Below, in pieces: positions 3,019 to 34,549 of a stretch of 38,328 bases of DNA. The notes under the pieces were generated by a model. It saw only the letters and a list, made by a program, of their open reading frames with translations, ran no database searches and was not told the DNA's origin. The stretch covers positions 1 to 38,328 of the forward strand of contig CANQOW010000004.1 in NCBI GenBank assembly GCA_947625545.1. Direction: 5' to 3'. Source of the DNA: an uncultured Clostridia bacterium (GTDB lineage Bacteria > Bacillota > Clostridia > TANB77 > CAG-508). Positions within the stretch are counted from its first letter, which is position 1, and every line of letters starts with the position of its first letter. The position numbers and the translations under genes were made by a program.

Positions 3019-3369
3019 ATGAATATGTTTAAAAAAATTATTATAGGAATAATTGCTGGACTAATAAACGGTTTTTTCGCCTCAGGGGGAGGAATGATTT
3101 TAGTACCAGCATTTTATTATATTTTAAAATTAAATGAAGTTGAATCAAGGGCAACATCTGTACTATGTATTTTGCCAATGGTAATAGTAAGTTCATTTTT
3201 CTATTATAAAGGAAATTATATGGATTGGAAATTAGGAATAATGTGTGCTATTGGTGGAATAATAGGAGGAGTTATTGGATCTAAATTACTAAAAAAAATT
3301 GATGAAAAATATCTTAAAATATCATTTATAATTTTCTTAATATATGTAGCATATAAAATGATAGTTTAA
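3019..3369 (+). CDS. TSUP (TauE/SafE) family membrane protein, half-size
   Basis: The 116-residue protein has about four hydrophobic segments and the family pattern GLINGFFASGGGMILVPAF near the N-terminus, then VESRATSVLCILPM. Full TSUP transporters (sulfite, sulfonate or other anion exporters) are usually about 250 residues with two such halves, so this is one half. The next gene encodes the other half; together they total 246 residues. The ribosome binding site is weak, and the second Met (codon 3) is an alternative start. The substrate cannot be told from sequence. Confidence 0.8.
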   Translation: MNMFKKIIIGIIAGLINGFFASGGGMILVPAFYYILKLNEVESRATSVLCILPMVIVSSFFYYKGNYMDWKLGIMCAIGGIIGGVIGSKLLKKIDEKYLKISFIIFLIYVAYKMIV

Positions 3370-3386: not shown

Positions 3387-3779
3387 ATGGAAGTTTTAAT
3401 TGGTGTAATATCTGGAATTGTATCAGGCTCAGGGCAAGGTGGAGGTACAATTTTAATATTATGTTTAACATTATTTTATGGAATAGACCAACATAAAGCA
3501 CAAGCAACAAATTTAATTTTTTTTGTACCAACCGCAATTTCTGCAATAATAGTAAGTATAAAAGAAAAAAATATTAAATGGAAAGTAGTTTTACCTGTAA
3601 TTATTTCTGGTATGATTGGTGCATTAATTGGAGCATATTTTTCTACAAAAACAGATGTAAAAAGTTTAAAAAAATATTTTGGATATTTTTTAGCGTTAAT
3701 TGCTATATATGAAATTTATTGTTACTTAAAAAAGTATATATTTAATAAAAAAACACATAATAAAGACAGAGTACATTAG
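3387..3779 (+). CDS. TSUP (TauE/SafE) family membrane protein, second half
   Basis: The 130-residue protein repeats the TSUP pattern (GIVSGSGQGGGTILILCLTL, then HKAQATNLIFFVPTAISAI) and has about four membrane segments with a Lys-rich C-terminus. It starts 17 bases after its half-size neighbour, with TTGGAG ahead of its own ATG. The ordered stop, ribosome binding site and start argue for two separately translated subunits rather than a broken gene. I infer that they pair in the membrane to form one transporter. Confidence 0.8.
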   Translation: MEVLIGVISGIVSGSGQGGGTILILCLTLFYGIDQHKAQATNLIFFVPTAISAIIVSIKEKNIKWKVVLPVIISGMIGALIGAYFSTKTDVKSLKKYFGYFLALIAIYEIYCYLKKYIFNKKTHNKDRVH

Positions 3780-4106: not shown

Positions 4107-4541
4107 TTATTTACAACATTCATCTGTACATTTGCAATCATCTTTATCATCAACTACAAAATCGCATTTATCCATTTTTACGCCTTTTAAACAATCGCCT
4201 TCATGTTGAATTTTTGTGCAAACTTTTACGTGTTTTACAGCATCTACCCAAATTTGTAAAGCATATACTTTATCTGGGCAAAGAGGACCAAATACAAATT
4301 CTCCTTCTTTATCTGTAAAAGTATGAGAAACTGGTCTTCTTTCTTCTTTACCACAATCATAAACTACTTCAATTAGTTTTACAACAGCGTTTTCAACGGG
4401 TTCTTTATAGCAATTTCTTACTATACCATAAATAACATCTCTATCATCTTCTGGTAAAAGTATATCTAAATCAAATTGCTTTCCAGATGCTATAACACCA
4501 TCTATATCAGTTATAGGGTTTGGTCTTTTTTCACAATTCAT
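4107..4541 (-). CDS. Carboxypeptidase regulatory-like (prealbumin-fold) protein, Cys-rich
   Basis: The 144-residue protein has no signal peptide or membrane segment. Residues about 35-100 read like a carboxypeptidase-D regulatory / transthyretin-like beta sandwich: VIYGIVRNCYKEPVENAVVKL, then HTFTDKEGEFVFGPLCPDKVY. Short Cys-containing segments flank it: MNCEKRPNPI at the N-terminus and a tail with Cys at KCDF, DDCKC and ECCK. The Cys pattern suggests metal binding or disulfide cross-linking, possibly in a spore or surface layer; this is inference. AAAGGAATG precedes the start. It is transcribed divergently from feoA, across a palindromic repeat. Confidence 0.75.
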   Translation of the reverse strand: MNCEKRPNPITDIDGVIASGKQFDLDILLPEDDRDVIYGIVRNCYKEPVENAVVKLIEVVYDCGKEERRPVSHTFTDKEGEFVFGPLCPDKVYALQIWVDAVKHVKVCTKIQHEGDCLKGVKMDKCDFVVDDKDDCKCTDECCK

Positions 4542-4587: not shown

Positions 4588-4616
4588 ATATTATGTAAAA
4601 TACATTATTTTGTTAC
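4588..4616 (-). promoter_or_regulatory. Promoter of the Cys-rich protein, mirrored with the feoA promoter
   Basis: On the minus strand GTAACA (4611-4616), a 17-base spacer and TAATAT (4588-4593). The same GTAACAAAATA sequence forms the -35 region of the feoA promoter on the other side of the palindrome. Confidence 0.5.
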
Positions 4617-4778
4617 TATTTATATTAAACTTTAAAAGAGTATAATATAATATTTGTTCTCAAGAAAATTTGTTAGGTTATAGGGTAATCCGTGAGCAGC
4701 AGGCTTAACAAACTTTTCTTTCGAAAAATATATATTATACTCTTTTAGTTATAATTAAAAAATATAGGTAACAAAATA
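4606..4778. repeat. Dispersed palindromic repeat, copy 1 (173 bases)
   Basis: The conserved core at about 4650-4737 contains ttgttctcaagaaaa, then gggtaatccgtgagcagcag, then cttttctttcgaaaaata. It is flanked by locus-specific arms: aaaagagtataata (from 4634) pairs with tattatactctttt (to 4746), and TATTTTGTTAC (4606-4616) pairs with GTAACAAAATA (4768-4778). Within the core, AGAAAA pairs with TTTTCT and TTTGTTAGG with CTTAACAAA, leaving an apical loop of about 25 bases. The same core recurs at 23985-24099 and 34411-34549. Confidence 0.85.
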
Positions 4779-15844: not shown

Positions 15845-15873
15845 TTGACATTTATTTGTATAAATGTTATAAT
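15845..15873 (+). promoter_or_regulatory. Perfect sigma-A promoter driving a candidate ncRNA
   Basis: TTGACA (15845-15850), exactly 17 bases, then TATAAT (15868-15873). No ORF follows before the terminator, and the next gene is on the opposite strand. Confidence 0.8.
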
Positions 15874-15879
15874 TATTTT

Positions 15880-16002
15880 ACCAAAAGAATTAAATTCTTT
15901 GTTCGGTCGATAGCTAGAAACTGATTTTTAAAAATTAAGCGTATGTTAAGTACGTCAGTCTAGTTGGGAAAAGGTTACTTAAAAGTAGCCTTTTTTCTTT
16001 TT
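15880..16002 (+). ncRNA. Candidate small noncoding RNA of about 120 nt
   Basis: Bounded by a perfect promoter (-10 ending at 15873) and an intrinsic terminator (15971-16002). The transcript has a 5' hairpin AAAGAAT/ATTCTTT and a central stem CTAGAAACTGA/TCAGTCTAG with a small bulge. That stem encloses an AU-rich stem and CGTA/TACG, and the terminator hairpin follows. The longest ATG ORF inside is six codons. It does not show the signature sequences of SRP RNA, tmRNA, RNase P or a T-box. The family is not recognised; 6S or a regulatory sRNA are possibilities. Confidence 0.6.
15971..16002. terminator. Intrinsic terminator of the candidate ncRNA
   Basis: GGTTACTT and AAGTAGCC form an eight-pair stem with a two-base loop followed by TTTTTTCTTTTT. 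On the other strand the stem is followed by TTTTCCC, so it may also end the DUF3800 transcript. Confidence 0.85.
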
Positions 16003-16003
16003 G

Positions 16004-16762
16004 TTATGGCAAAAATATTTTATAATTTACGAATTCAATTTTTTTAGAAAAACTTGTTATATCATTTATATTATTCAAATAAAATTTTCTAACAGTTCCT
16101 GCTACTAAATCAGAAGCTTGAATTAAATAACTTTTTTCAGATTTTTGATAACAAACATTAACTTCTAAATCAGAGTTTACTATAGGAGATTTTATAGAAC
16201 TATAATTATAATTAAAAATACCATATTTTAATTCTTCAATTATACCATCTTTTAAATTATAATATCCATTGGTTTTTGTTGTTTGTTCATCAATATTTAA
16301 AACCAATTTTATAGGTAAATCGGGATTTATACGATTTTCTTTAATTAAACACTTTATTGTGTGTTTAATTAATAATTTTAAAGAATAATCTAAAAATCTA
16401 CCTCTTGATGCTGTATCATTTTTTATATTAGGATAAACTTTATCATTATTAATTATGCAACAAAGAATAGAATATTTTTTTATATAATTCATTAATTGTC
16501 TATTATGTTTAGGTTTTAACATATTATGTTTTAATTCTGGACAACATTTATTATTAGAACATATAGAAATATCTTTATTGCAATATTTACACTTTATACT
16601 TTCAGTAATACTTCTATATTGTGTTATAAATTTATCTTTTTCTTTTTTTGAAGTAAATACCAGACCAGCATAAACAGAAACTTTTTCACTATTTACTAAT
16701 TTACCTGAATCATCAATATTTATATATATTGTTTGTTCTGTATTATTTTTATCAAATTCCAT
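16004..16762 (-). CDS. DUF3800 domain-containing protein
   Basis: The product begins with the DUF3800 hallmark: a short strand and an acidic pair in IYINIDDSGKL. It ends with the conserved ASDLVAGTVRKFY. DUF3800 proteins are predicted RNase H-like nucleases often found near mobile or defence genes; function is unproven. A Cys-rich insert at about 70-95 (CKYCNKDISICSNNKCCPEL) could bind zinc. The ATG chosen has AAAGGAAA upstream and gives 252 residues; a longer in-frame start 66 bases earlier adds an AT-rich hydrophobic extension with no ribosome binding site. Confidence 0.8.
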   Translation of the reverse strand: MEFDKNNTEQTIYINIDDSGKLVNSEKVSVYAGLVFTSKKEKDKFITQYRSITESIKCKYCNKDISICSNNKCCPELKHNMLKPKHNRQLMNYIKKYSILCCIINNDKVYPNIKNDTASRGRFLDYSLKLLIKHTIKCLIKENRINPDLPIKLVLNIDEQTTKTNGYYNLKDGIIEELKYGIFNYNYSSIKSPIVNSDLEVNVCYQKSEKSYLIQASDLVAGTVRKFYLNNINDITSFSKKIEFVNYKIFLP

Positions 16763-16856
16763 AGGCAATTTCCTTTCTAAAAAATTAATGAAATTATTAT
16801 AACATAATAAAAAGAAAATTGTAAACATAAAAAGAGAGAAATTTTAAAACGCATAC

Positions 16857-23914: not shown

Positions 23915-23984
23915 ACGTGTAACATTAAAAAAGCCTATTTTTTATTGTATAGGAAAAATCGAAGAATTTTCTTATAGTAGTTAG

Positions 23985-24099
23985 ATTTAGAGTTCTAATA
24001 TATATTTGTTCTCAAGAAAATTCGTCAGGTTATAGGGTAATCCGTAAGCAGCAGGCTTAACGAACTTTTCTTTCGAAAAATATATATTAAACTCTAAAT
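23985..24099. repeat. Dispersed palindromic repeat, copy 2
   Basis: The same core as at 4606-4778 (ttgttctcaagaaaa, gggtaatccgtaagcagcag, cttttctttcgaaaaata). Its own outer arms are atttagagttctaata on the left and tattaaactctaaat on the right. In the inner stem this copy has TTCGT opposite ACGAA where copies 1 and 3 have TTTGT opposite ACAAA, a compensatory pair change. It lies in the pheT-murI gap. Confidence 0.85.
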
Positions 24100-34410: not shown

Positions 34411-34549
34411 AAAAAGCCAAATTCTGCATGAGTTTAATATATATTTGTTCTCAAGAAAATTTGTCAGGTTTTAGGGTAATCCGTGAGCAGCAGGCTTAAC
34501 AAACTTTTCTTTCGAAAAATATATATTAAACTCATGTATTTGGCTTTTT
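34411..34549. repeat. Dispersed palindromic repeat, copy 3, set inside a terminator-like stem
   Basis: The same core (ttgttctcaagaaaa, gggtaatccgtgagcagcag, cttttctttcgaaaaata) with arms catgagtttaata/tattaaactcatg. Outside these, AAAAAGCCAAAT (34411-34422) pairs with ATTTGGCTTTTT ending at 34549. That outer stem with its T run is what a plain intrinsic terminator after the dipeptidase gene would look like, and the repeat occupies its loop. Confidence 0.88.

Follow-up and report, generated by a model that had tools for sequence, protein, structure and literature searches.

A palindromic MITE-like element of gut Clostridia with self-complementary variable arms and a conserved branched core

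Three copies of a non-autonomous, MITE-like palindromic mobile element, belonging to a family of small-genome gut Clostridia, are found in the window, the stretch of 38,328 nucleotides of an uncultured Clostridia bacterium analyzed here. As a whole, the data are best explained, with a probability of about 0.68, by a mobile MITE-like element whose arms undergo template switching and whose core is selected separately. Movement would be the work of a DDE-type transposase encoded elsewhere and acting on the ends. Once the element is inserted, DNA polymerase would switch template between the two arms during replication, copying one arm onto the other so that point changes appear on both sides together, while switching between molecules would flip the loop. 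Such events would produce arms that are ‘locus-specific but self-complementary’. Separate selection would preserve the core, most likely in the form of an RNA structure located behind genes and read on the sense strand.

Anatomy and distribution of the element

From the outside inwards, the element is composed of terminal inverted repeats (TIRs), an asymmetric internal loop, a GCCAAA block present in some subfamilies, and an inner arm of ~20-25 bp that grows A+T-rich toward the core. A small internal loop separates this arm from a second stem, which carries a conserved bulged C on its 3′ side, and the branched cap that follows has two short hairpins. The cap, whose sequence in the window genome is GGGTAATCCGTAAGCAGCAGGCTT, is a three-branched fold topping a long hairpin. 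The long form of the element measures ~190 bp, with 14-bp TIRs (GTTACAATTCACAG) and target duplications of 8 bp, and the consensus of the arm family is GCCAAATnnGCAGGAGTTTAATATATAT. In genus g30 (L079, L080, L077 and L311), a core variant has an extra long internal arm with the motif GGCCCCGTAATGTGCGAAAG, and its matches extend over ~160 nt versus ~113 nt otherwise. The three window copies, predicted from the letters of the DNA at 4606-4778, 23985-24099 and 34411-34549, were confirmed at these positions, and a segment of 27 bases within the core has three exact occurrences in the window versus none expected (100 shuffles). Their parts are as follows.

4612..4772, + strand: copy 1, whole element, its TIRs compared with the GTTACAATTCACAG family
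4612-4619 and 4764-4772: copy 1, degenerate TIRs GTTACTAT and ATAGGTAAC, respectively
4634..4656, + strand: copy 1, left inner arm AAAAGAGTATAATATAATATTTG
4657..4725, + strand: copy 1, conserved core (branched cap)
4726..4746, + strand: copy 1, right inner arm, complement of 4634-4656
23983..24008, + strand: copy 2, left arm AGATTTAGAGTTCTAATATATATTTG
24009..24077, + strand: copy 2, conserved core, 3′ of pheT and 5′ of a racemase gene (murI-like)
24078..24099, + strand: copy 2, right arm
34411..34447, + strand: copy 3, left arm AAAAAGCCAAATTCTGCATGAGTTTAATATATATTTG, bearing the GCCAAAT outer block
34448..34516, + strand: copy 3, conserved core, with convergent genes on either side (peptidase M19 and a minus-strand ORF)
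34517..34549, + strand: copy 3, right arm with terminus ATTTGGCTTTTT; the ends, A5...T5, resemble a bidirectional terminator

Copy 1 is flanked by a minus-strand gene (4107-4541) on one side and by feoA (from 4832) on the other. Its arms pair through AAAAGAGTATAATATA with TATATTATACTCTTTT, and those of copy 3 through AAAAAGCCAAAT..CATGAGTTTAATATATA with TATATATTAAACTCATG..ATTTGGCTTTTT. The 8-bp target duplication is no longer present at copy 1, and an intact one is absent from all window copies.

The window genome (G000; 1.1 Mb in 85 contigs) contains 16 copies of the core, far more than the three places known from the window, and copies ~75% identical occur in a relative from another genus. 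A covariance model trained on 29 copies detected the element across the bacterial family, in 21 of 243 genomes and 10 of 39 genera, and many of the positive genomes hold at least 15 copies. In an order-wide sample of 339 genomes, no positive genome was found outside the family. The compared genomes are draft, multi-contig assemblies, those identified being metagenome-assembled genomes (MAGs), and the named records with exact-pattern matches are MAGs of uncultured Clostridia. An origin from phages or plasmids was rejected, no match being found in phage, plasmid and IMG/VR collections. The copies are dispersed and intergenic, none of 138 lying inside a long ORF as judged from simple ORF calls.

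At the Rfam gathering score no match was obtained for the element and eight homologue loci, and below it only chance-level matches appeared, which leads to rejection of a known RNA family. Neither outcome that would have refuted the original prediction was seen: many additional copies exist, and no known RNA or repeat family was matched. The sole Rfam match in the whole window is a DUF3800-I RNA (RF02969, 62 bits) at 15873-16003 (+), adjoining a DUF3800 gene (16004-16828, −), an association that is already known.

Terminal repeats, target duplications and insertion sites

Mobility is documented by the ends of the element. TIR pairs GTTACAATTCACAG / GTTACCATTCAGAC are spaced 171-195 bp apart in three genera, sharing of TIRs being a hallmark of MITEs, and end pairs of GTTACAATTCACAG lie 178-190 bp apart in G000 and G131. 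The mean identity of the flanks peaks sharply at a width of 8 bp (0.68 versus 0.41 for shuffled flanks), with little excess at neighboring widths, and at least 7 of 8 bases match in 15 of 30 TIR-bearing copies versus 0.9% of mismatched pairs. Such a pattern is the signature left by a transposase that works on the ends of an element.

Comparison of the flanks of G000 copies with ~1.02 Mb of G002, a genome of the same genus, revealed empty orthologous sites for six copies (L005, L007, L008, L011, L013 and L014), with flanks mostly 93-97% identical, while L015 is occupied in both genomes. G002 is not uniformly ‘empty’: at L006 it retains a piece of the left arm, a deletion remnant showing that some presence/absence differences are losses. 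The empty site of L011 is a 16-bp palindrome to which two convergent genes contribute their ends; the element lies centrally within it, a clear case of insertion into a pre-existing palindrome. Another such insertion is suggested at L009, whose boundaries are terminator-like arms with T8 at their ends. The remaining empty sites are mostly A+T-rich and ambiguous, or non-palindromic. Pre-existing palindromes are therefore not the source of most arms, and the idea that outer arms are purely target sequence holds at L011 only; elsewhere they are the variable TIR region of the element itself.

Candidates for the enzyme that moves the element were sought in several genomes. No widely spaced TIR pair, as an autonomous partner might show, was present in the genomes scanned. 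IS66, which resembles the element in its TIRs and 8-bp duplication, was considered as partner and rejected, no IS66 transposase being found in six genomes. A role as IS200/605 or RAYT substrate was likewise rejected, given the absence of Y1 transposase from G000 (84.6% complete); one or two Y1 matches each occur in G001, G002 and G006.

Paired changes in the arms, inversion and conservation of the core

The arms stay complementary despite their sequence variation. The original prediction was right on complementarity within each copy. Between copies the arms are not unrelated, being divergent versions of GCCAAATnnGCAGGAGTTTAATATATAT with paired changes on both sides. Copies were aligned within each of 11 genomes and the distinct pair types counted per stem position. 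The 233 arm pairs comprised 115 double Watson-Crick types, 20 G·U, 19 A·C and 49 other mismatch types; these types are not phylogenetically independent events, and whole-arm exchange between copies may contribute to them. The excess of double over mismatch types (115 versus 88 among 233 pairs) corresponds to the arm homogenization of template-switch hairpins, and the arms behave as if one had been copied from the other.

Stem covariation commonly counts as proof that an RNA is under selection, and such an explanation, in which the entire hairpin including its arms is a cis-element or small RNA under RNA-level selection and dispersion is secondary, was considered. The covariation is strong, both sides being changed in 20 of 35 pairs, and the core shows a sense bias and folds better on the sense strand. 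However, selection on an RNA stem should make G·U more frequent than A·C and lead double changes along G·U intermediates, and neither is seen in the arms: G·U and A·C are balanced in types (20 versus 19) and in raw cells (132 versus 122), and 44 of 115 double changes are reachable via G·U, near the third expected by chance. The arms thus carry no trace of RNA selection through G·U. Since copy presence also varies between close relatives and the orientation of the core flips, a conserved structured RNA is an improbable account of the whole hairpin. Of the two readings first offered for the repeat, that of an element inserting into hairpins or copying them proved largely correct, as TIRs, 8-bp duplications, empty sites and the apparent copying of arms indicate, while that of RNA under selection fails for the arms, for want of a G·U signature, and stays possible for the core.

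The core also changes orientation. Of twelve orthologous pairs of occupied loci, each from two congeneric genomes, five have the core turned around in place, a spacer inversion in which the arms are kept. Both flanks are collinear in four of the inverted pairs (L037/L244, L047/L246, L049/L242 and L071/L238), and one flank only in the fifth (L066/L067); orientation could be mis-assembled or polymorphic in draft assemblies. In L037/L244 the turned segment is only the loop within 23-bp arms, while in L047/L246 it extends to the outer arms. Four of the five inverted pairs are located between convergent genes, a setting in which the core is sense to one gene in either orientation; the difference from the other pairs is not significant in this small sample (p=0.24). 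Two different loci of G006, L039 and L042, share common outer flanks, against which their cores point in opposite directions.

Published work attributes arm homogenization together with spacer inversion to a polymerase that switches template between inverted repeats (PMC8604942), and it has been suggested that RNA hairpins arise and are maintained in this way (PMC8794818). The same two marks are combined here, and switching is taken as the best account of arms and flips. More than 100 paired changes without G·U excess or G·U route, accompanied by in-place inversion of the loop, point to DNA template switching as their source, with the caution that covariation in long palindromes need not mean RNA. 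The family, with its many natural copies and orthologous pairs, is a useful natural test of template switching and could serve to measure the pace at which hairpins are rewritten by this process in bacteria.

The nearest alternative is homologous recombination between the arms, by which the core might likewise be inverted. A site-specific recombinase that uses the inverted repeats for phase-variable inversion would suit the architecture and the in-place inversion between close relatives, but is very unlikely because the arms, its would-be recombination sites, vary strongly between copies and the inversion endpoints vary by locus (inner arms in L037/L244, outer arms in L047/L246).

The core itself is more strongly conserved across genera than any other part, whereas arms and ends vary; a MITE center in decay would show the opposite pattern. 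The core is found more often in sense than in antisense orientation to the neighboring gene (65 versus 28, p=1.6e-4, for codirectional or one-sided contexts based on simple ORF calls). Of 111 unique cores, 86 fold better as the sense strand than as the antisense, and a G·U route is commoner among double changes in the core than among those in the arms (14/22 versus 44/115, p=0.035). These hints point to an RNA role, and the core probably acts at the RNA level. The proposed RNA would be branched and would include a loop of the GUAAU type as well as an AGCAG loop, and candidate roles are protein binding, processing of transcript ends, or a function in termination or stability. The core also represents a conserved, branched and hitherto undescribed structure, whose strand preference is testable.

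Other cores occupy the same frame. A type-2 core (GAACCCACGCGGGAAACGCCTACGAAGTTTTTCGGGGGTC) is found within the same arms in two genera (g24 and g45), at L166, L169, L171, L174, L180 and L182 in G131, L313 in G075, L315 in G058 and L318 in G137; its representative at L171 has no Rfam match. A third type (CCTCAGCGTACACAAAGTACGCTTCCGG) occurs at L155 of G001 (~330-480), within a GCCAAAT frame ending in CTGTGAATTGTAAC. Hairpins without a core exist as well: L043 and L324 are one coreless locus in two species, and L172 bears core-stem remnants and looks like a deletion form. Coreless hairpins were therefore rejected as ancestors. With second and third core types and coreless forms in one frame, core and frame are separable.

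Alternatively, the core may be seen as the mobile unit, a cassette inserting in either orientation at the tips of existing palindromes such as terminators or MITE hairpins. Differing cores within one frame, hairpins that have these arms but no core (L043/L324, L172), the change of orientation between orthologous loci, the element centered in the 16-bp palindrome of L011, and distal arms that differ at every locus in G134 and G152 would all fit. No orthologous pair was found with the hairpin alone versus the hairpin plus core, however, L172 has the appearance of a deletion form, and TIRs and target duplications show the frame moving as a whole, so that this explanation is unlikely. A stronger version, rather unlikely as well, makes the core a new class of branched nucleic-acid cap, an independent hairpin-tip cassette that would be recognized as a folded single strand, would insert at or replace palindrome tips in either orientation, and would be exchangeable on the same stem.

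Relation to known repeats and hairpins

The element, read as a mobile MITE-like repeat with template-switched arms, is related in kind to several known systems. Bacterial MITEs and small palindromic repeats, among them the Correia/NEMIS, RUP, ERIC, YPAL and RPE families, have been reviewed (PMC2229807), and YPAL targets are located at or beside dyad symmetry (PMC2229807). The likeness lies in a size of 100-200 bp, a mostly A+T-rich composition, intergenic location, TIRs, target duplications and a transcript folding into a long stem-loop, the Clostridia element having no ORF. Unlike these families, it differs in sequence and host, keeps a branched core while arms and ends vary, and combines interchangeable cores with in-place inversion and a fixed 8-bp duplication. 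To our knowledge, no sequence relation links it to the bcr1 repeats of the Bacillus cereus group. In the parts of the source consulted (PMC3446304), bcr1 and related repeats are dispersed, MITE-like and structured, as is the Clostridia element, and often lie within UTRs, some families of that group having predicted conserved RNA folds; the same parts describe no inversion or core exchange for bcr1 repeats, unlike what is seen here.

Template-switch hairpins, known from yeast inverted repeats (PMC8604942) and RNA stems (PMC8794818), share with the element perfect arms maintained through double changes and a spacer or loop inverted in place. They are single loci with very short spacers, the yeast coding cases involving changes of 2-5 bp, whereas the element is multi-copy and bacterial with a spacer of ~70 nt. 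REP/RAYT and IS200/IS605-derived palindromes are also dispersed and extragenic; unlike them, the element occurs in a genome without Y1 transposase and has TIRs and an 8-bp duplication instead. In chloroplast intergenic DNA, minute inversions of hairpin loops distinguish close relatives and are often located behind genes. There too a loop between inverted repeats flips, but the Clostridia element is mobile and multi-copy and has a longer conserved core.

The window contains other features of note. ORFs 3019-3369 and 3387-3779 each correspond to half of a TauE/SafE family exporter, the C-terminal half preceding the N-terminal one, and represent either split half-size genes or a domain swap. A 44-bp inverted repeat, 93% complementary, lies at 398-441 and 880-923 with 438 bp between its halves, and at the contig end (38247-38328) an (AC)n/(GT)n foldback is likely an assembly artifact.
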